Part shown: positions 33,168 through 54,676 of the stretch, piece after piece
Layout: each line of letters begins with the position of its first letter
Position numbering within the stretch: the stretch's first letter is position 1
NCBI RefSeq assembly: GCF_003025035.1
Contig: NZ_PYJN01000005.1
Coordinates: 352,864-416,863 of the forward strand
DNA from: Rhizobium sp. SEMIA4064
GTDB taxonomy: Bacteria > Pseudomonadota > Alphaproteobacteria > Rhizobiales > Rhizobiaceae
Direction: 5' to 3'
DNA: 64,000 nucleotides
Notes under the pieces: generated by a model
Seen by the model: the letters and a program-made list of their open reading frames with translations, nothing else
What the model was told of the DNA's origin: nothing
Database searches by the model: none
Made by a program: the position numbers and the translations under genes

Positions 33168-35171
33168 TTATTCCGCGGCGATCGCCGCAGCACTCTGATC
33201 TTCGACCAGGAACGGCTCGGTGCGCACCGGCAGGGCCGGTACGTCCATGTGATCCGGGCCGAGACCCTTCCTGGCGCGTTCGACCATCATTTCGTAGGCG
33301 GTCTCGAGGTGACGGGTGATGCGTTCGGCATCGAAGAGCGGCTTGATATAGCGGTTGACGGTCAGCGTTTCCTTGAGCGCGGCAATGCGCTCCGGCTGCC
33401 TGGCAAGTTCCACGGCCATATCTTCGTAGGCCTGGACATCAGCGGCCACCAGCTCCGGTACGCCGATGGCGGCGAGCAGGCTTTCGCTGACGCGCGAGGC
33501 GAAGTTCGTGCCCTTCATCGTCAACACCGGCAAACCGCCCCAGAGCTGTTCCGAGGTCGTCGTATGGCCGTTCACCGGGAAGGTATCGAGACCGAGATCG
33601 GCCAATTGCTGGCGGTCGATGTGATCCTCATAGCGGATACGGGTGGTGAAGACGATGCGCTTGCGGTTGACGCCGCGCGCCTCCAGGCGTGACCAAAGGT
33701 TGGCCTCGGCGCGCGGACCGTTGCAAAGCAGCCAGAGCACGCTGTTCTTGGTGCGCTTCAGTATGTTGCACCAGACATCGACCATTTGAGAGGTGATCTT
33801 GCGGTTGCCGTTGAACGAGGCAAAGACGAAGGCATCTTCCGGCAATCCATGCTCCGCTCGAGTGGTCGGCCGTGCCTTCGGACGATACATCGGATCGTTC
33901 GGCTGATAGCATTCGGGCAGACGGCAGAACTTCTCATGGAAATGCGGCTTGGAATAATCCGGCAACACGTAGGGGTCGCCGATGATGTAGTCGAGGTCGA
34001 TGTTGACGGCCGAGCCCGGAAAGCCGAGCCAGGCCGTCTGGATCGGCGCTGCCTTGTGATTGAGGATACGGACGCGGCTATCCTTGGTATGTCCCTTGAG
34101 ATCGACCAGGATGTCGATCCCACGGGCGCGGATCGCCTCCGCCGCTGCCTGATCGGAGTGGCTGCGGATATCGACCATGGTGCCCCATCTCGAATAGTCG
34201 AATTCTTCCTCGCGCTGAGATGACAGGGACGAGTGGTCGAAGAGGGTAATCTCGAACTTGTCCCTGTCGTGCAGTTCCAATGTCCGCTGCAGGAGCTTCA
34301 TCGTCGCATGGCCCGGCCAGAAGTCCGATGAGAGATAGCCGATGCGAATCTTGCCGGCCCAAGTATGCGGCGCCTTGCGGCGCGCTTCGGCGTGTCCGGC
34401 CGGCAGCGGCATCGTGTCGTGCACAGCGAACTTGTTGATTGCTTCGTCGCCGCACCAGTGCAGATGGAAGAATGGATTGTCCGGCCTGACATAGTCGAGG
34501 CTGCCCGCAGCTACGGATGTCAGGATCGGCCCCATATGTTTGTCCACCGTCGCAAGATCGGACAATTCGCGAGCAAAGATCAAATGGAGCGTGCGAAAGA
34601 TGATATTGTCGGGATGCTTCTTGAACAGGGTGGCAACGATGTGCCGGTTGCCGTCGTCGTAAAGATCATCGGTCAACAGTTTCGAGGCCAGCAGCCGATG
34701 CCGGAGCTCCGGTCCTTCAACGAGGACGCTCTTGAAGCCGGCCAGCAGGTCCCTTTGCTGTCGGCTTAGAAAGATGCTGGTAAGGGCAAAGGCGAGTTCC
34801 GGATCCTTGAACGCCTGGGGCAGGATCAGGCTTCCGATCGAGAGCGTCGCGTCTTCGTTGCCTGTCGCAAAATGCAACAGCAAGGCTTCCCGCAGATAGT
34901 CTTCGCGATACGGCTTTTGTCTGCCTGCCAGCTCAAACGATCTCGCCGCGTCCGATCTGAAGCCGAGTTTCAAGAGCGTTTTTGCCAGCAGCGCGTAGGT
35001 CTTTGGCGATGTGTCGGTATTGAGCAGCTCGTTCAGTGTTTCGAGCGCGCGCGTATATTGCCCCTTTTGATAGAGGTTGGACGCTGTCACATAGGCGTTT
35101 TTCGTATTCACGAGCGAGAACTCCGAGCGAACTTTGACCAGTCTCCGGCAATGGCCGAAGTCCGTCATCAT
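33168..35171 (-). CDS. GT41/SPINDLY-type O-linked glycosyltransferase with TPR-like N-terminus
   Basis: A 667-residue protein. The N-terminal 240 residues are helical repeats of TPR type (YQKGQYTRALETLNELLNTD near 34). The C-terminal half is an O-GlcNAc-transferase-like domain with IRIGYLSSDFWPGHATMKLL, VDLKGHTKDSRVRIL and NGHTTTSEQLWGGLPVLTM near 535-553. These enzymes transfer a sugar from UDP- or GDP-sugar to Ser/Thr of proteins. It lies between fliP and the first flagellin gene, so flagellin glycosylation is a reasonable inference. GTG about 20 codons inside, with GGAG upstream, is an alternative start. It is monocistronic and opposite to its neighbours. Confidence 0.85.
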   Translation of the reverse strand: MMTDFGHCRRLVKVRSEFSLVNTKNAYVTASNLYQKGQYTRALETLNELLNTDTSPKTYALLAKTLLKLGFRSDAARSFELAGRQKPYREDYLREALLLHFATGNEDATLSIGSLILPQAFKDPELAFALTSIFLSRQQRDLLAGFKSVLVEGPELRHRLLASKLLTDDLYDDGNRHIVATLFKKHPDNIIFRTLHLIFARELSDLATVDKHMGPILTSVAAGSLDYVRPDNPFFHLHWCGDEAINKFAVHDTMPLPAGHAEARRKAPHTWAGKIRIGYLSSDFWPGHATMKLLQRTLELHDRDKFEITLFDHSSLSSQREEEFDYSRWGTMVDIRSHSDQAAAEAIRARGIDILVDLKGHTKDSRVRILNHKAAPIQTAWLGFPGSAVNIDLDYIIGDPYVLPDYSKPHFHEKFCRLPECYQPNDPMYRPKARPTTRAEHGLPEDAFVFASFNGNRKITSQMVDVWCNILKRTKNSVLWLLCNGPRAEANLWSRLEARGVNRKRIVFTTRIRYEDHIDRQQLADLGLDTFPVNGHTTTSEQLWGGLPVLTMKGTNFASRVSESLLAAIGVPELVAADVQAYEDMAVELARQPERIAALKETLTVNRYIKPLFDAERITRHLETAYEMMVERARKGLGPDHMDVPALPVRTEPFLVEDQSAAAIAAE

Positions 35172-35360
35172 GGATTCGTGGGATAATCGCGCGCGTAGCT
35201 TGCCTGAAACCGAAGCAATGTTGAACGCTCCTTTACGTATCGTTAGCTACGTTACGGTTGGCCGCTTTTGGGAGTTCCGCGTTTAAGGAATTCGCAAGCA
35301 ATGCATGCGAGTTTACCTGCGACATGACGGGTTTGGTCCTCTAGGAAATGGGACCGAGGA

Positions 35361-35441
35361 GCATGAAGCCGCTCCGTCATCGCCGGTATTTGAAGTCCGG
35401 TATGTCCTCCTTTTCGTATTCAGTTTCCAGGGGACACACTT
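35361..35441 (+). promoter_or_regulatory. Flagellin flaA leader with RBS-masking helix
   Basis: GCATGAAGCCG at 35361 starts a segment shared with the flaD leader. CCGG pairs flank a small loop at 35383-35400, followed by TGTCCTC (35403-35409). This can pair with GGGGACA (35430-35436), which contains the ribosome binding site six bases upstream of ATG 35442. The pairing is seven base pairs with one G-T wobble. flaB and flaC leaders have the same arrangement. Confidence 0.6.
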
Positions 35442-36353
35442 ATGACCAGCATTGTAACCAACAACTCCGCTATGGCCGCTCTGCAGACTCTGCGCGGCAT
35501 CAGCAGCAACCTGCAGAACACGCAGGAAGCCGTTTCTTCCGGCCTGCGCATCTCCAAGGCTTCCGATAACGCCGCCTATTGGTCGATCGCCACCTCGATG
35601 AAGTCCGACGACAGCGCTATGGGCGCCGTCTCCGACGCCCTCGGCCTCGGTGCTGCCAAGGTCGACACGGCATCTACCGCCGTCACCAGCTCGATCGACA
35701 TCGTCGGCCAGATCAAGGACAAGCTCGTCACCGCCATGGAAGGCTCGGTTGACAAGGGCCAGGTCCAGGAAGAAATCGGCCAGCTCCAGCAGCAGCTCCA
35801 GAGCGTTGCTCAGTCCGCTTCGTTCAACGGCGAAAACTGGGTCATGGCTGCAAGCGGCGACTCGGCCTCGGTCGTTTCGTCCTTCATCCGCGGCACCAAC
35901 GGCACCGTTTCGGTCAGCACCACGTCCTACGCATTCAACACCGGTGCAACGGGCAACGTTCTGTTCGGCTCGAACAGCGGTTCGATCGATACCTCTTCGG
36001 GTATCCTTGGCACCACGGACTCCACGGTTGGCGCTTCGGTCTTCAGCCTGGACATTTCCAACATGACCTCGGGCCAGATCTCCAGCGCCCTCAACATGGT
36101 TCAGACCGCTCTGAACTCCATGACCAGCATGGGTTCGAAGCTCGGCTCGATCTCCAGCCGTATCGACCTGCAGACGAGCTTCGCTTCGTCGCTCTCCGAC
36201 TCGATCGAATCGGGCGTTGGCAAGCTCGTCGATGCCAACATGGAGCAGGAATCGAGCAAGCTCTCTGCTCTGCAGACACAGCAGCAGCTCGCTATCCAGT
36301 CGCTCTCGATCGCGAACTCCTCCTCGCAGTCGATCCTGTCGCTGTTCCGTTAA
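35442..36353 (+). CDS. flaA: Flagellin FlaA
   Basis: A 303-residue flagellin with the conserved N-terminal D0/D1 helices (MTSIVTNNSAMAALQTLRGI) and C-terminal helices (SKLSALQTQQQLAIQSLSI). The short central region is rich in Ser and Thr (VSVSTTSYAFNTGATGN region), as in complex rhizobial filaments. It is a near copy of the next gene, with equal length. The paralogue call A versus B is by order only. Translation is probably controlled by the leader and FlbT/FlaF. A terminator follows. Confidence 0.95.
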   Translation: MTSIVTNNSAMAALQTLRGISSNLQNTQEAVSSGLRISKASDNAAYWSIATSMKSDDSAMGAVSDALGLGAAKVDTASTAVTSSIDIVGQIKDKLVTAMEGSVDKGQVQEEIGQLQQQLQSVAQSASFNGENWVMAASGDSASVVSSFIRGTNGTVSVSTTSYAFNTGATGNVLFGSNSGSIDTSSGILGTTDSTVGASVFSLDISNMTSGQISSALNMVQTALNSMTSMGSKLGSISSRIDLQTSFASSLSDSIESGVGKLVDANMEQESSKLSALQTQQQLAIQSLSIANSSSQSILSLFR

Positions 36354-36362
36354 GAAGAAGGA

Positions 36363-36434
36363 CTGGCGCCAGACGCCAGCCGAAATTTCTAAACACCAAG
36401 TTAACCGCGCCTTCCTAAGGCGCGGTTTTTTTTA
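36363..36434 (+). terminator. Double hairpin and terminator after flaA
   Basis: CTGGCG and CGCCAG (36363-36379) form a first hairpin. A second stem, AACCGCGCC (36403-36411) and GGCGCGGTT (36419-36427), is followed by a run of about eight T residues, a clear Rho-independent terminator. The upstream hairpin may protect the mRNA 3' end. Confidence 0.9.
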
Positions 36435-36465
36435 TATTTTTGGATTGGCCTCGGTTCAGGTTTTC

Positions 36466-36610
36466 TTAACCATATTGCTGTTTTCTAACACCATTGAAAC
36501 GGCGAGTTAACCTTAACAGATTGGGTTAACAGGCATGATGCTGAGTGCCGTTACCGGTTTTTAGGTCCGGAATGTCCCTTAATTAACCGCTGCCAAAGGG
36601 GCAAAATATT
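36466..36610 (+). promoter_or_regulatory. flaB promoter and leader: TTAACCAT, paired GTTAAC, RBS-masking helix
   Basis: TTAACCAT lies at 36466-36473, and GTTAAC at 36506-36511 and 36525-36530 (19 bases apart). AGGCATGATGCTGA follows, a segment almost identical in flaC. CCGG pairs at 36554 and 36567 frame a loop. TGTCCCTT (36573-36580) can pair over eight bases with AAGGGGCA (36596-36603), which holds the ribosome binding site nine bases before ATG 36611. Confidence 0.6.
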
Positions 36611-37522
36611 ATGACGAGCATCCTTACCAACAACGCTGCAATGTCCGCCCTGCAGACGCTGCGCGGCATCAACAGCGACTTGCAGTCCACTCAGAATGCT
36701 GTTTCCTCCGGCCTGCGCATCTCCAAGGCTTCCGACAACGCCGCCTATTGGTCGATCGGCACCACCATGAAGTCTGACGACAGCGCTATCGGCGCCGTCT
36801 CCGACGCCCTCGGCCTCGGTGCCGCTAAGGTCGACACGGCAACGACCGCTGTCACGAGCGCCCTCGACATCGTCAGCCAGATCAAGTCCAAGCTTGTAAC
36901 CGCCATGGAAGGCTCGGTTGACAAGGGTCAGGTCCAGGAAGAAATCGGTCAGCTCCAGCAGCAGTTGGAGAGCGTCGCTCAGTCCGCTTCGTTCAACGGC
37001 GAAAACTGGGTCGTGGCTGCCGCCAACGACTCCGCCTCGGTCGTTTCCTCGTTCATCCGCGGCACCAACGGCACCGTTTCGGTCAGCACCACGTCCTACG
37101 CATTCGACACCGGCGCAACGGGCAACGTTCTGTTCGGCTCGAATTCCGGCACGATCGACACCACGTCCGGCATTCTCGGCACCGTGGACAGCACGGTCAA
37201 TGCCTCGGTCTTCAGCCTCGACATCACCGGCATGACCGGCGGCCAGATCTCCAGCGCCCTCAACATGGTTCAGACCGCTCTGAACTCCATGACCAGCATG
37301 GGTTCGCGCCTCGGCTCCATTTCGACCCGTATCGACCTGCAGACGAGCTTTGCTTCGTCGCTGAAGGACTCGATCGAATCGGGCGTCGGCAAGCTCGTCG
37401 ATGCCGACATGGAACAGGAATCGAGCAAGCTCTCTGCTCTGCAGACGCAGCAGCAGCTCGCTGTTCAGTCGCTCTCGATCGCCAACTCCTCTTCGCAGAA
37501 CATCCTGTCGCTGTTCCGTTAA
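36611..37522 (+). CDS. flaB: Flagellin FlaB
   Basis: A 303-residue flagellin, nearly identical in length and sequence to flaA (for example the shared SGLRISKASDNAAYWSI and QSASFNGENWV segments). Differences are scattered through D0 (TSILTNNAAMSALQTLRGI) and the central region. It is probably a tandem duplicate with gene conversion. It has its own leader and terminator, so it can be expressed independently. Confidence 0.95.
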   Translation: MTSILTNNAAMSALQTLRGINSDLQSTQNAVSSGLRISKASDNAAYWSIGTTMKSDDSAIGAVSDALGLGAAKVDTATTAVTSALDIVSQIKSKLVTAMEGSVDKGQVQEEIGQLQQQLESVAQSASFNGENWVVAAANDSASVVSSFIRGTNGTVSVSTTSYAFDTGATGNVLFGSNSGTIDTTSGILGTVDSTVNASVFSLDITGMTGGQISSALNMVQTALNSMTSMGSRLGSISTRIDLQTSFASSLKDSIESGVGKLVDADMEQESSKLSALQTQQQLAVQSLSIANSSSQNILSLFR

Positions 37523-37570
37523 TAGGAAGAGCCGGCGCCTGGCGCCGACTGAAATTCCGAAACAACAATT

Positions 37571-37604
37571 TAACCGCGCCTCCCAAGAGGCGCGGTTATG
37601 CTTT
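37571..37604 (+). terminator. Terminator after flaB
   Basis: A perfect 12-base stem, TAACCGCGCCTC (37571-37582) and GAGGCGCGGTTA (37587-37598), with a 4-base loop is followed by TGCTTTT. The core AACCGCGCC/GGCGCGGTT is the same as in the flaA terminator. A palindrome (CGGCGCC/GGCGCCG, 37533-37547) precedes it. Confidence 0.85.
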
Positions 37605-37656
37605 TCAGGGTAGCCTCTATCGTATTCTTGCTGCTTTCGCGAGCAGCTCGGCTTGC

Positions 37657-38919
37657 TCAGGAGGCGTCCGTCGTTACGCCGGTCTTCCTGTTCTGCACGG
37701 CATCGATGAAGCCATCAAACAACTTGCGCATGGCAACCTGCTTGTAGGGGTAGACGGTCGCGCTATCCATGTTGTGGACGACCATTGCCACGTCGAGTTC
37801 GAAAACCAGCAGACGCCCGTCTGGAAGTTCGGCGCAATCGATACCGAAATAATCAAGCCCTATGTGCCGATAGAGAGCCGCGAAACTCTCCTTGTGGCGG
37901 ATCGCGAAATCCGTATCGAAATTCTCCATCCAAGCCTGTTCGACAGCGCGCTTCGCCGGGCTCTCCGCCATGCCGGCGCTCAGATAATGCACGATCCAAT
38001 GCTCGGAGAGTGCCATATGGCTGGCAAAGGCCTTACCGTCGATGAATACGATGCGTTGCTTGTTGTAGAGGCCGTCCGGCCCGCGGAAATCGATGAAGGG
38101 CGCGACGTAAAGCTCGGGAGCCGGCTGCGTGGCAATCCATGCGGAAAGTTCTATGATATCGGCGATGCGTTCCATTCCGTTGCCGGCATGGGTGCTGATC
38201 GGGCGAACGACCAGCGGAAAGGAGAGCCCCGGTGCGCAATCATCCAGGGTCTTCGTGCCCGCACCGATGGCGACAAGATCTGCTCGTGGCACGCGATACG
38301 TGCTCGGCGACAGGATGGAGGGCTCATTGGCCAGCATGCCGCTGACACCATCGCGCGTCAGCCTGCTGATCAGTTCCGGATCGTTGTTCATGATCGGGCC
38401 GTTAAAATCGGCCAGCACCTTCTGCATCCGTTCAAGCACGGGGCCGTTTTCCGTGGATTCGCCGATCGCCATGAACGCCACGTCATGCTCCGGCAAATCC
38501 GCGAGCGCGGTCGTTTCAGGATCCACATAGTGCAGCCAAAGAACACAGTCGCTATCCGCCAGTAGGAAATCCAGCGGCGTGTTCGCCATGAAGTTGCCCG
38601 GTGTCACGAAGGCCAGCAGCCGTGGTCCCTGTCCATTTCCATGGACGATGCAAAAGTTGCGGCTGAGATCGACGGCGCCCCGCAGGACCTGTTGCGCCTC
38701 CTCGGCGCGGTTAAGCGTTTGCAGGATCGTCGCTAGGTCGAAAATCGCCGCCGCATCCGTGCCATCGGCTCCAACGCGTTGCATCAGCTCGTTCCAGAGC
38801 GGCGTCACATCCGCGCCGGCATAGATGAGCGACACGATCCTCTGCATGCCCAGAATTCGGCCAGCGCCACCGATTTCGTCAGAGGCGCGGTCGGCCACGA
38901 GGCCGGATGTCATCAGCAT
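37657..38919 (-). CDS. ATP-grasp-like protein of unknown substrate, paired with a PLP decarboxylase
   Basis: A 420-residue soluble protein. Residues 20-85 look like a helical, TPR-type region. The middle has FPLVVRPISTHAGNGME (about 234-250), matching the ATP-grasp lysine/glycine loop area. The end has GLDYFGIDCAELPDG and LLVFELDVAMVVHNMD (355-385), matching the metal-binding acidic pair of ATP-grasp enzymes (D361, E374). Such enzymes join a carboxylate to an amine or thiol using ATP. Its start overlaps the decarboxylase stop by seven bases. The fold call is moderate; the substrate is unknown. Confidence 0.65.
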   Translation of the reverse strand: MLMTSGLVADRASDEIGGAGRILGMQRIVSLIYAGADVTPLWNELMQRVGADGTDAAAIFDLATILQTLNRAEEAQQVLRGAVDLSRNFCIVHGNGQGPRLLAFVTPGNFMANTPLDFLLADSDCVLWLHYVDPETTALADLPEHDVAFMAIGESTENGPVLERMQKVLADFNGPIMNNDPELISRLTRDGVSGMLANEPSILSPSTYRVPRADLVAIGAGTKTLDDCAPGLSFPLVVRPISTHAGNGMERIADIIELSAWIATQPAPELYVAPFIDFRGPDGLYNKQRIVFIDGKAFASHMALSEHWIVHYLSAGMAESPAKRAVEQAWMENFDTDFAIRHKESFAALYRHIGLDYFGIDCAELPDGRLLVFELDVAMVVHNMDSATVYPYKQVAMRKLFDGFIDAVQNRKTGVTTDAS

Positions 38920-40400
38920 GGGAGCAAATCCTGTCGAGAACCGAGTTTGAGAACGCCGTCAATCAGCGCATCGATATCCGCCTGCCGCGTGCGATGGTTC
39001 ACGATCGCGGCGCGGATTGCCGGTTGTCCGTTGAAGTGAGTTAGGGAAGGGGCAACGCGCCCCTCGGCGTGGAGATGTTCGATAATCCTTGCATTGACCT
39101 GCGGCGGCACGTCGTCGCCGGCGCCGACATAGGCAAAGCAAACGATGTTGAGCGCAACCGGCGCGAGGAGCCGCAAGGCGGGTTCCTGTTCGATCCGGCC
39201 TGCCAGGCCGCGCGCCAGGGCACAGTTGGCAGCCATCGAATCGCCCAATGCCTTGACGCCATAGGTCTTGAGGGTGAACCAGGTTTTGAGCGCGCGGAAG
39301 CCGCGGGACAGGTCCGGGCCGTAGTCGCAAGGCCACCAGTCGCCGCCGGCCAGACCGGAGGCCGCGCGGCTGAGATAGGCTGCATCCGAAGCAAACCTCT
39401 GACGCTGCCATGCGCTGTCCCGCACGAGGAGGAAGCCTGCGTCGTAGGGCACCTGGCCCCATTTATGGAAATCGAACGCAAGCGAATCGCAGGACTGGAT
39501 GCCGGTGAACAGATGCGCCAGATCATCGGACAGGATGCCCAGTGCCCCGAGCGCGCCATCGACGTGAAAATGCAGGTCATTGGCGTCAGCGATACCGCGC
39601 AAGGCACTGAGGTCGTCGATCGCTCCTGTATTCACCGTCCCCGCGGTTCCGATGACCAGGAACGGTGTGTGTCCTTCGTTCTTATCGCGCAGGATGGCAC
39701 GTTCGAGAGCCGCAATATCGATCTGCCCGGCCGCATTGACCTGGATGCGCCTGAGCTGCTCGCTGCCGATCCCCGACATCTCGAAGGCGCGCGGCACGCA
39801 ACCATGCACTTCGCTCGATGTATAGGCGACCAGCCGTGACCCATTCGGCAAGCCTTTTGCGCGGACATCCGCACCAAGCTTTCTGCTTAGCGCGAGCAGG
39901 ACGGCGACGAAATTGGCTTGCGAGGCGCCAGTCAGGAACAGGCCGCCGGCGGTCTCAGGAAATGAAAATATTTGCCGGGTCCATCGGATGATCTGACGCT
40001 CGACCTCGATCGGCATATGATCGCGCCCGCCGAGATTGGCATTCAGACCGCCAGCCAGCATCTCCGCCAACATACCAGCGGCCGTTCCGCCGCCCTGCAC
40101 CCAGCCCATGAATCCCGGGTGGATATTGCCGCTGCCATAGGGAAGGATGTTGTCGCGGAATATGGCGTGGGCATCCGCCAAATCCGTCGGTTCGACCGGC
40201 AGCGGTGCGTCAAACAGGGCGCGTGCGGGTGACGGCGCCGGTTGCCAGACGGGCTTCTCGGAGAGCGTTTCCAGATGGTCGAGCATATCGTCCAGCATCT
40301 GGTGACCCTGTTTGCGCAGGGTTTGCCAGTCGTCGGGGTCGAGGCTTGTCCGTTGAGGAGGTCCATCCCCCGGCAATCCGCCGTCTTGTAAACTTAACAT
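38913..40400 (-). CDS. Group II PLP-dependent decarboxylase (aromatic/other L-amino acid type)
   Basis: A 495-residue protein of the glutamate/aromatic amino acid decarboxylase family. The PLP lysine is K313 in DFHKWGQVPYD. H199 in SSEVHGCV should stack on the cofactor ring and D281 in HVDGALG pairs with its nitrogen. GGTAAGMLAEML and NIHPGFMGW are also family segments. It decarboxylates an amino acid to an amine. It forms a two-gene unit with the ATP-grasp-like gene, which could join that amine to a carboxylate. It is inserted between flaB and flaC on the opposite strand. The substrate cannot be told. Confidence 0.88.
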   Translation of the reverse strand: MLSLQDGGLPGDGPPQRTSLDPDDWQTLRKQGHQMLDDMLDHLETLSEKPVWQPAPSPARALFDAPLPVEPTDLADAHAIFRDNILPYGSGNIHPGFMGWVQGGGTAAGMLAEMLAGGLNANLGGRDHMPIEVERQIIRWTRQIFSFPETAGGLFLTGASQANFVAVLLALSRKLGADVRAKGLPNGSRLVAYTSSEVHGCVPRAFEMSGIGSEQLRRIQVNAAGQIDIAALERAILRDKNEGHTPFLVIGTAGTVNTGAIDDLSALRGIADANDLHFHVDGALGALGILSDDLAHLFTGIQSCDSLAFDFHKWGQVPYDAGFLLVRDSAWQRQRFASDAAYLSRAASGLAGGDWWPCDYGPDLSRGFRALKTWFTLKTYGVKALGDSMAANCALARGLAGRIEQEPALRLLAPVALNIVCFAYVGAGDDVPPQVNARIIEHLHAEGRVAPSLTHFNGQPAIRAAIVNHRTRQADIDALIDGVLKLGSRQDLLPC

Positions 40401-40546
40401 GCCGATCCCGCATTGGCTGAATTGTCGACGTCGCGATCACGCCGTTTGCGGCGGGACAGTCGTCCGATCGTGACAATCTTATGCCGCCCAAGGTGGCGCG
40501 AGGCTGACCTGACGCGCGGCTCGCCTCTTCCGGGATATATGATTTT

Positions 40547-40645
40547 GTTAACTTTCCGGTTTCCTTGTTAACTTTTTATTAAGCCTAATGTTGTCATCTG
40601 CGGCTAACGCAACGGTTGGTTAACTTCTCCTAAGAGCCGGTTAAC
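40547..40645 (+). promoter_or_regulatory. Four GTTAAC motifs and a TTAA-N7-TTAA box upstream of flaC
   Basis: GTTAAC occurs at 40547, 40567, 40619 and 40640, in two pairs spaced 20-21 bases. TTAA at 40568-40571 and TTAA at 40579-40582 are seven bases apart, the classical CtrA box layout of alphaproteobacteria. The last GTTAAC is followed by AGGCATGACGCTGA, also seen in flaB. Regulator identity is inference. Confidence 0.45.
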
Positions 40646-40722
40646 AGGCATGACGCTGACTGCCGTTCCCGGCCGAAGACCGGAATGTCCCTTCTAATTT
40701 CAGCCACAAGGGGCACCTCTCC
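40646..40722 (+). promoter_or_regulatory. flaC leader with RBS-masking helix
   Basis: CCGG pairs at 40669 and 40680 flank a short loop. TGTCCCTT (40686-40693) is complementary over eight bases to AAGGGGCA (40708-40715), which contains the ribosome binding site nine bases before ATG 40723. The two arms are identical to those in the flaB leader, although the 14-base spacer between them differs. Confidence 0.6.
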
Positions 40723-41643
40723 ATGACCAGTATTTTGACCAACGATGCTGCAATGTCTGCTCTCCAGACTCTGCGCTCGATCAACAACAATTTGGAAAAT
40801 ACCCAAAACCGCGTCTCCTCCGGCTATCGTGTTGCCAAGGCCTCCGACAACGCCGCCTATTGGTCGATCGCGACCACCATGCGTTCCGACAACAGCGCGC
40901 TTTCGGCTGTCTCTGATGCTCTGGGTCTCGGTGCTGCCAAGGTCGACACCGCCTATACGGCAATGGACAATTCCATCAGCGTCGTCGAGCAGATCAAGGA
41001 CAAGCTTGTCGCGGCAACGGAAAACAGCGTCGACAAGGCTGACGTTCAGGAGGAGATTTCGCAGCTCCAGGAGCAGCTTGAGAGCATCGCGCAGTCCGCT
41101 TCGTTCTCCGGGCAGAATTGGATGATCGGAGCCAACGGCGCCTCCGCATCGGTCGTGTCCTCCTTTGTCCGCAACAACGACGGTACGGTCGCGGTCAACA
41201 GCACCAGCTACACGTTTGATACGGGATCGGCAGGCAACGTGATGTTCGGCGCCAATTCCGACGGCACGATCGACACGAGCTCCGGTATCCTCGGCACCAC
41301 ACAGGATATCAACGGCACGGCCTATTCCGTCTTCAGCCTCGACATTACCAACATGACGAGCGGCGACATTTCCCTGGCGATGAACCTGGTGCAGTCGGCC
41401 CTCAACACGATGACGAGCACCGCTTCGCAGCTCGGCTCGCTGTCGACCCGCATCGACCTGCAGACTAGCTTCGTTTCAACCCTGAGCGACACGATCGACT
41501 CCGGCGTCGGCAAGCTCGTCGATGCGAATATGGAAGAAGAATCAAGCAAGCTCTCGGCGCTGCAGACACAGCAGCAATTGGCGATCCAGTCGCTGCAGAT
41601 CGCAAACAACAGCGCGCAGAACGTTCTGGCGCTCTTCAAGTGA
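40723..41643 (+). CDS. flaC: Flagellin FlaC
   Basis: A 306-residue flagellin (MTSILTNDAAMSALQTLRSI at the start, SKLSALQTQQQLAIQSLQI near the end). It is more diverged from flaA/flaB in the centre (SSFVRNNDGTVAVNSTSY). The paralogue letter follows gene order only. It shares the regulated leader type with flaA and flaB. Confidence 0.93.
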   Translation: MTSILTNDAAMSALQTLRSINNNLENTQNRVSSGYRVAKASDNAAYWSIATTMRSDNSALSAVSDALGLGAAKVDTAYTAMDNSISVVEQIKDKLVAATENSVDKADVQEEISQLQEQLESIAQSASFSGQNWMIGANGASASVVSSFVRNNDGTVAVNSTSYTFDTGSAGNVMFGANSDGTIDTSSGILGTTQDINGTAYSVFSLDITNMTSGDISLAMNLVQSALNTMTSTASQLGSLSTRIDLQTSFVSTLSDTIDSGVGKLVDANMEEESSKLSALQTQQQLAIQSLQIANNSAQNVLALFK

Positions 41644-41712: not shown

Positions 41713-41833
41713 TTAGCCTTCCGGGGTACTGATTTGCAGTATTTGCGCAAAGCCCCGGTGTCCGGCCTTTTTCGTCGGAACCGTCAGGGCTTTATCTAGC
41801 GACGGGCCGCGTTGGGATCTCTTCCGCTGGCTG

Positions 41834-41900
41834 GCATGAAGCCGTTCGTTGCTGCCGGATCGTCCGGTCTGCCGTTTCCAATAGAATTACGGATTTTCCG
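41834..41900 (+). promoter_or_regulatory. flaD leader, related to flaA but without the masking arms
   Basis: GGCATGAAGCCG at 41834 and CCGG pairs at 41855 and 41864 match the flaA leader layout. The TGTCC arm and the AGGGG ribosome binding site are absent. The 34 bases after the second CCGG have no strong Shine-Dalgarno, so translation may be weaker or controlled differently. Confidence 0.45.
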
Positions 41901-53882: not shown

Positions 53883-54230
53883 ATGTATCAGTTCTCATAT
53901 GCGGAAGTCATGCAGGATGCGGTGGCCGACGCCAAAGAAAGAGAACGGCAAGTACTGGACCGGTCGGTAGCTCTTCTCTCAGCGGCCCGTGACAAGGGGA
54001 AGTACGGCCGCGAAGCGATCGAGGCGTTGTTCTACACAAGACGCGTCTGGCTCAGCTTTATTGAGGATCTGAAAAGCCCGGAGAACCAGCTCAACGTCGA
54101 ACTGCGTGCCAATCTGATCTCCATCGCAATCTGGATTTTGAAGGAATGCGATCGGATCCGTAGGCGCCAGTCGGAAAATTATCAAGGCATCATCGATGTC
54201 ACCACCATCATCAGGGATGGACTTAAATGA
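53883..54230 (+). CDS. flaF: FlaF flagellin-regulatory protein
   Basis: A 115-residue FlaF family protein ([20 protein letters not shown], then LWQ-like helix [15 protein letters not shown] and [17 protein letters not shown]). In alphaproteobacteria, FlaF promotes flagellin production and works with FlbT. It overlaps flbT by four bases. Confidence 0.93.
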
Positions 54231-54676
54231 AAAGTACGCTTCGCATATCGCTTAAAGCCGGGGAAAGAATTTTTATCAACGGGGCCGTGCTGCGTGTTGA
54301 CCGCAAGGTCGCCCTGGAATTCCTGAATGATGTGACCTTCCTGCTCGAGAACCACGTTCTCCAGCCGGAGGATGCGACGACGCCGCTGCGCCAGCTCTAT
54401 TTCATCGCGCAGATGATCCTCATCAATCCGGAAGGCAAGGAACAATCGACGGCAATGTTCCGCAAGTCGATCGTCATGTTGCTCACATGCTTCCGCAACG
54501 AGGAAGTGCTGGCCGAGCTGAAGCGTATCGACGGCCTCGTTGCCACGGGCCGCGCCTTCGATGCGCTGAAGGCAATCCGGGGGCTTTATCCGGTCGAGGA
54601 CAACATCCTTAACAGCCAGGAGATGCCGGCGGCAACGATCGAACACATCCGCCGGGAGATCGCTCCGTGGCGGTAG
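54227..54676 (+). CDS. flbT: FlbT post-transcriptional regulator of flagellin
   Basis: A 149-residue FlbT protein ([41 protein letters not shown] and [18 protein letters not shown]). In Caulobacter, FlbT binds the flagellin mRNA leader and marks it for decay; in rhizobia it can instead promote flagellin synthesis. It is the best candidate to act on the leaders of flaA, flaB and flaC in this window. It overlaps flgD by 10 bases. Confidence 0.94.

Follow-up and report, generated by a model that had tools for sequence, protein, structure and literature searches.

On the Hag/FlaA mRNA, FliW and CsrA tie the translation of flagellin to its export by blocking the Shine-Dalgarno sequence (SD). In Caulobacter, the regulator FlbT binds the flagellin leader and co-represses together with the flagellin FljJ, and in Brucella it is a proposed activator, as stated in parts of PMC3930126, PMC4347634, PMC8781033, PMC9812332 and PMC7591256; passages of PMC3930126, PMC8781033, PMC9812332 and PMC7591256 also report that flbT was found in a loss-of-motility screen of Agrobacterium fabrum and that it is needed for flagellin in Brucella. 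The action of FlbT on flagellin mRNA is termed unknown or unclear in passages of PMC3930126 and PMC4347634, and its sign is opposite in Caulobacter and Brucella. Here we analyse the flagellin leaders of a 64,000-nucleotide stretch of Rhizobium sp. SEMIA4064 (assembly GCF_003025035.1, contig NZ_PYJN01000005.1, positions 352,864 to 416,863; this whole stretch is called the window), which carries four flagellin genes (flaA, flaB, flaC and flaD) with flaF and flbT downstream, in the same cluster, as an earlier reading made without database searches (the sequence-only reading) had stated. The leaders of flaA, flaB and flaC appear to be structured RNAs whose last hairpin (P4) covers the SD and would block translation until FlbT, together with FlaF, opens the hairpin, a reading to which we give about an even chance.

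The locus resembles the Caulobacter crescentus FlbT/FlaF/FljJ system in the presence of flbT and flaF, in an FlbT of the same NCBIfam subfamily, in one flagellin paralog that stands apart and in the flagellin 5' leader as the presumed seat of control. It differs in that no flagellin-linked leader match was found beyond the order in the 289 class genomes searched; moreover, FlbT represses in Caulobacter, whereas the passages cited above report it as needed in Brucella and Agrobacterium. The flg-Rhizobiales RNA (RF01736, 141 positions, described in parts of PMC2864571 and PMC3765529) is likewise composed of several hairpins and stands before flagellar genes of this order, but its three over-threshold matches precede rod genes of the flgF/flgG type, and RF01736 was rejected as the identity of the leader since its strong matches belong to flgF/flgG leaders. 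It matched none of 101 genomes of the window's family, in a search where no control matched either. At loci L229-L234, in Bradyrhizobium-like and other genomes, flgF/flgG-type genes are preceded by RF01736 (the three matches above threshold) or by its weaker relatives. The FliW-CsrA system shares the control of flagellin translation by SD blocking; CsrA, however, reads GGA, while 46 of the 111 parsed P4 arms are GGGGC, without GGA, and the genes at hand are flbT and flaF. A CsrA-type leader, with GGA at the SD of all members, was rejected on this count. No account of the flagellin leader was found in the mainly open-access literature searched.

P3 and P4, the hairpins next to the start codon

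The P4 arms of flaB, TGTCCCTT and AAGGGGCA, lie 15 bases apart, as the sequence-only reading had described; those of flaC are 14 bases apart, and flaA has the variant pair TGTCCTC with GGGGACA, separated by 20 bases (Table 1). The G-run serving as the SD lies inside the 3' arm in the three genes, and a CCGG-loop-CCGG hairpin (P3) stands directly 5' of P4, both as previously noted; flaD has the CCGG element too. The spacer is not free, type-specific motifs being enriched in the P4 loops (AGTATT, GTATTT and TTTCGT in type A, with the arm GGGAC; GCCAA and CAGCCA in type B, with the arm GGGGC).

Leaders of relatives came from 65 named-record loci, almost all of them Rhizobium, and from about 100 genomes of the order and family. 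The 445 leaders (192 plus 253, the first set with duplicates) were reduced to 236 by dropping near-copies and short or N-bearing sequences, to 207 by removing 29 with a flagellin score below 100, and to 167 by a tighter similarity cut. A hairpin caller found an SD-covering stem in 136 of the 207 flagellin leaders, compared with 55 of 621 shuffled sequences. The strict expression CCGG-loop-CCGG followed after 1-2 bases by TGTCC occurs in 114 of these 207 non-redundant leaders, and the CCGG/TGTCC pattern was not seen before MPVIS-type flagellins in the leaders sampled. The P3 loop has U as its first letter and A as its third-last in 55 of 121 cases (10.4 when shuffled), letters which presumably recall a T-loop.

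Covariation of the two arms in relatives was the test that the sequence-only reading had named beforehand, and both arms covary. The alignment used (150 leaders) comprises the 167 leaders minus 9 (non-ATG start or not flagellin) and 8 (extra paralogs per genome), with two GTG-ending rows retained and the window's flaB replacing a near-copy in L007; its members were selected by protein homology, not by leader shape, and aligned on sequence only. For the 14-pair structure of P3 and P4, 79 cells were changed on both sides versus 41.2 after shuffling (0 of 500 shuffles as high), 78.6% of the cells were paired versus 75.9% (0 of 500 as high; slid controls, 33-55%), and 13 of the 14 pairs had at least one both-side change versus 8.7 (2 of 500 as high), counts that are not probabilities because the sequences are related. 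The pair 55-91 by itself showed 38 both-side changes, and the second P3 pair was found as AU (30), GC (25), GU (14), UA (7), CG (4) and UG (2). The same trend was obtained with a 72-leader seed picked for both helices, comprising 72 of the 89 rows that have at least 4/6 and at least 5/8 pairs. Judged from these sequences, P3 and P4 are kept by compensatory changes in flagellin leaders.

Three further predicted helices upstream

P3 is preceded by NGCATGANGCN (P2) in 167 of the 207 leaders, 65-94 bases before the start codon in 166 of them, and the outer letters of P2 pair in 145 of the 167, versus 119.7 after shuffling (maximum 132 in 2000 shuffles). Directly 5' of P2 there is a hairpin of free sequence (P1): at a score of 14, a leader's own arms matched in 88 of 166 cases, versus 14.7% for arms swapped between leaders, and the P1 arms of the window's flaA and flaB are very different sequences that pair in both. 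The bases separating P2 from P3, 10-13 in the 138 parsed leaders, pair with a stretch before P1, forming P0, with own arms matching in 44 of 166 leaders at a score of 18 (7.3% when swapped) and a perfect 7-bp match adjoining P3 in 53 of 138 (12.7%); the P0 arm pairs are of 108 distinct kinds among the 118 leaders scoring at least 13. These comparisons show, at the level of sequence, that the arms of P0, P1 and P2 match better within a leader than between leaders. P0 is predicted to close a three-way junction enclosing P1 and P2, which makes P4 the last of five helices.

TTAACC boxes are most frequent 141-160 bases ahead of the start codon and show a second maximum at 101-110, where P1 lies; the parts of PMC10469942 and PMC10055731 available to us give no transcript start for rhizobial flagellins. 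A leader-peptide reading frame starting at ATGTC was rejected, its frame being random (47/46/38 in 131 leaders), and a GGGCAAA/GCAAAA motif near P1 was dropped as rare (10 and 7 of 166).

Predicted closure of the SD and the flagellin without P4

With 60 bases of leader, flaA, flaB and flaC all fold into P3 and P4, and the computed probability that the G-run is unpaired was 0-0.05 between 10 and 50 °C in the three genes (62- or 120-base leaders). The free minimum-energy fold of flaB 36498-36613 consists of the five helices of the model, P0(P1)(P2), P3 and P4. Masking of the ribosome binding site, suggested by the sequence-only reading, is predicted by this folding, and P4 would block initiation in this way. 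An alternative long fold was also seen in flaA (35332-35436); it joins the P1 region to the SD arm and is lower in energy than the conserved model.

The SD-covering stem was present in 39/39 FlaA-type, 10/10 FlaB-type, 61/72 FlaC-type and 3/40 FlaD-type leaders (loci of the named records and the window; types are nearest-query labels, not tree-based). The FlaD-type leaders have P2 and P3 in 40/40 and no P4 stem in 37/40, so that one member of the flagellin cluster consistently lacks the P4 mask. Extra Rhizobium flagellin copies (L047 on plasmid pRLN2, and similar ones among L040-L059) keep P3 and P2 and lack P4. As far as the loci listed show, such extra copies account for the 11 of 72 FlaC-type leaders that are stemless.

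The element is tied to flagellin genes

A covariance model (R1) was built from the 72-leader seed. In the window's genome (assembly 82% complete), R1 found only the three window leaders below E 0.5 (E ≤5.6e-7; next match 0.52), values that are not independent because all three are training rows. At E 0.001, R1 matched 114 of the 199 family genomes; 44 of 249 order genomes and 3 of 289 class genomes, the own genome being one of these three, were matched at E 0.01. The best 62 matches of the own-genome, class, order and family searches were followed up, those with E above 0.5 being left out: in 57 of them a flagellin starts -6 to +12 bases from the end of the match, and 3 more, on cut contigs, encode a flagellin; the failures were two weak class matches (L247 and L248) with no flagellin following. 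Twenty of these 62 loci come from genomes first encountered in the R1 order and family searches. The element was not seen in 20 flagellin leaders of other class genomes, and Rfam release 15 gave no match to the window (gathering threshold), to the window leaders (E ≤10) or to eight plus two related loci. Conservation and specificity together show that, judged by its best matches, the element is tied to flagellins. The flagellin-leader observation is larger than first noted, since it includes a predicted five-helix leader, a flaD without P4 and an element tied to flagellins. By eye, flagellin leaders of other Alphaproteobacteria (L381, L384, L388 and L391) show hairpin-like stretches, one or two per leader, whose core resembles GCAAAAYGC.

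The FlbT subfamily follows the leader

FlbT is present in 44/44 model-positive order genomes and also in 131 of the 205 others; its presence by itself is therefore uninformative, and it is the subfamily split and the gene position that carry weight. NCBIfam has two FlbT models, and the FlbT of the window belongs to NF001995 (166.4 bits, cut-off 125); the control genome of Caulobacter vibrioides exceeds the same cut-off, indicating the same FlbT subfamily. One branch of a FlbT tree, with a support of 100/100, separates 21 proteins of leader clusters from 20 of other flagellar systems, both sets having been hand-picked with match lengths and cluster positions in view; 18 of the 21 come from model-positive genomes, the window included, and those of G036, G069 and G100 do not.

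A test on the 249 order genomes is independent of the hand-picked sets. It gave an NF001995-type FlbT in 62 genomes at a limit of 109 bits, set after seeing the gap to the next score (98.7), or in 57 when the curated limit of 125 bits was applied. The type is present in 42 of the 44 model-positive genomes compared with 20 of the 205 others (Fisher p 9e-30, or 1e-22 among FlbT-positive genomes, uncorrected for kinship), and the two exceptions are weak R1 matches (E 0.0045 and 0.0086). Two FlbT proteins are encoded in 11 model-positive genomes (G035, G119, G143, G149, G607, G612, G650, G654, G667, G668 and G670). Each of the 11 has its NF001995-type copy on the contig of the leader, at a distance of 12-21 kb, and its second copy at another place. 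No FlbT relative was found in PDB at E up to 1. In systems with the other FlbT type (L222, L226 and L227), flagellin leaders with repeated hairpin-like stretches and AGGA or AGAA loops were noticed by eye.

Mechanism and alternatives

FlbT as the reader and opener of the leader is the most likely mechanism. Pairing of the SD by P4 in flaA, flaB and flaC would probably shut flagellin translation; an FlbT of the NF001995 type would recognise the leader and, with FlaF, open the SD hairpin in rhizobia, a role suggested by the A. fabrum motility-screen hit and the flagellin requirement in Brucella. FlaD, unmasked by P4, could be made first and may report on export, as FljJ does in Caulobacter. A wider proposal, which we hold to be possible but doubtful, is that the leaders form a new class of cis-regulatory RNA (three-way junction, T-loop-like hairpin and SD hairpin) that in Hyphomicrobiales makes the finished hook a condition of flagellin translation, with FlbT holding or opening the SD hairpin according to the export of the exempt FlaD, and that leaders and FlbT subfamily evolved as a matched RNA-protein pair. 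With an RNA that has covarying helices, a predicted closed SD, an unmasked paralog and a matched FlbT subfamily, the question of how FlbT acts on flagellin mRNA becomes directly testable, and a structured RNA family would be added that Rfam release 15 does not match in the stretches searched.

Several results weigh against leaders closed by P4 and opened by FlbT. P4 was not called in 71 of the 207 leaders. The second P3 pair is non-standard in 60 of 142 rows and the outermost one in 66 of these 142; in P4, the innermost two pairs are broken in 65 of 128 and in 80 of 124 rows, although the helix cores are firmer (the four inner P3 pairs in 88-96% of rows each, the four P4 pairs U103-C106 in 84-94% each). 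The relatedness of the sequences, which limits the shuffle counts, belongs here as well. RNAalifold predicts no pairs on the 150-leader alignment, which we attribute to alignment gaps and outliers, and the pairs were therefore counted for a named structure. The minimum for the whole flaA leader is -37.7 kcal/mol versus -27.6 for the model, with the SD pairing elsewhere than in P4; that of flaC is -28.9 versus -21.8 kcal/mol, without P4 and with the SD paired elsewhere. The putative SD of flaD (CGGA) is also mostly paired in the same computation (1-21% open), and an open flaD leader therefore does not follow from folding by itself. Outside the order no flagellin-linked match was found in 289 class genomes, though Caulobacter has the same FlbT type, and 20 of the 62 NF001995-type genomes have no R1 match (in the few leaders seen among these, such as L192, L200 and L202, P3 and, for the most part, P2 are kept but P4 is altered or absent). 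The co-occurrence with FlbT can also be explained as co-inheritance of one flagellar cluster.

Instead of a switch, the leader might be an element for stability or ribosome standby, with hairpins shielding the mRNA from RNases and a long P4 loop parking ribosomes for a constantly high output. Flagellin is a bulk product, an mRNA can be shielded by helices close to its 5' end, and the P4 loops of the window are indeed long (14 to 20 bases). But P4 pairs exactly the SD with both arms kept, and a stability role fails to explain flaD, because FlaD-type leaders keep P2 and P3 (40/40) and rarely P4 (3/40); we judge this explanation unlikely. A switch with another input, such as a small molecule, a small RNA or a different RNA-binding protein recognising the P0-P1-P2 junction or the T-loop-like P3, would fit the likeness of the junction, the conserved GCATGANGC and the P3 loop letters to a recognition module, as well as the occurrence of FlbT where the leader is unmatched. 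It appears distinctly unlikely, as the leader goes with the FlbT subfamily, even within the 11 model-positive genomes that have two FlbT proteins.

It is improbable that the inverted repeats act purely as DNA, in operators or class III promoters, with no RNA role: the TTAACC boxes 141-160 bases upstream and the CtrA motifs described for flaA, flaC and flaD of S. meliloti in part of PMC3616915 would suit such elements, but operators keep their sequence, whereas the P0 and P1 arms vary freely yet stay complementary, and P4 sits on the SD, a few bases 5' of the start codon. The sequence-only reading had proposed a switch driven by FlbT/FlaF or by a condition; the tracking of the leader by the FlbT subfamily favours the former, while temperature as the condition was unsupported by folding. 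An RNA thermometer, melting within the growth range, might have been expected, since the SD hairpin is short and in flaB and flaC contains a U-G pair; it was rejected, and is in our view very improbable, because the SD is predicted to be paired up to 50 °C (0-5% unpaired at 10-50 °C in the three leaders).

Features of the flagellin cluster

The coordinates of the leaders and genes are collected in Table 1. The best match to FlaA is from R. leucaenae USDA 9039 (98% identity).

Table 1 Leaders, SD-covering hairpins and genes of the flagellin cluster, in window positions; leader structures are predicted.
Feature	Position	Strand	Details
flaA leader RNA (predicted)	35324-35441	+	P0 35324-35330/35374-35380; P1 35332-35340/35350-35358; P2 35360-35370; P3 35382-35386/35397-35401; P4 35403-35409/35430-35436; helices supported in relatives
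flaA P4, SD-covering hairpin	35403-35436	+	SD = GGGG 35430-35433
flaA, flagellin	35442-36353	+	
flaB leader RNA (predicted)	36498-36610	+	P0 36498-36503/36547-36552; P1 36506-36513/36523-36530; P2 36532-36542; P3 36554-36557/36567-36570; P4 36573-36580/36596-36603
flaB P4, SD-covering hairpin	36573-36603	+	
flaB, flagellin	36611-37522	+	
flaC leader RNA (predicted)	40611-40722	+	P0 40611-40615/40663-40667; P1 40619-40625/40639-40645; P2 40647-40657; P3 40669-40672/40680-40683; P4 40686-40693/40708-40715
flaC P4, SD-covering hairpin	40686-40715	+	
flaC, flagellin	40723-41643	+	
flaD leader	41797-41900	+	P0-like arms 41797-41805/41846-41854; P2 41833-41843; P3 41854-41858/41864-41868; no P4
flaD, fourth flagellin, without P4	41901-42878	+	
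flaF, flagellin regulator	53883-54230	+	PF07309, NF009434
flbT, NF001995-subfamily regulator, putative leader partner	54227-54676	+	PF07378

A strong terminator-like hairpin with a T-run lies 3' of flaA (36400-36434), where Rfam sRNA matches were sub-threshold. Between flaB and flaC, two genes on the minus strand (37657-40400) interrupt the flagellin cluster, one without a Pfam match and the other encoding a PLP-dependent decarboxylase. Divergent from flaA, a gene on the minus strand (33168-35171) encodes a protein that has a GT41 glycosyltransferase domain and weakly matches a TPR-rich family, and which we take to resemble in outline the Caulobacter flagellin glycosyltransferase FlmG.

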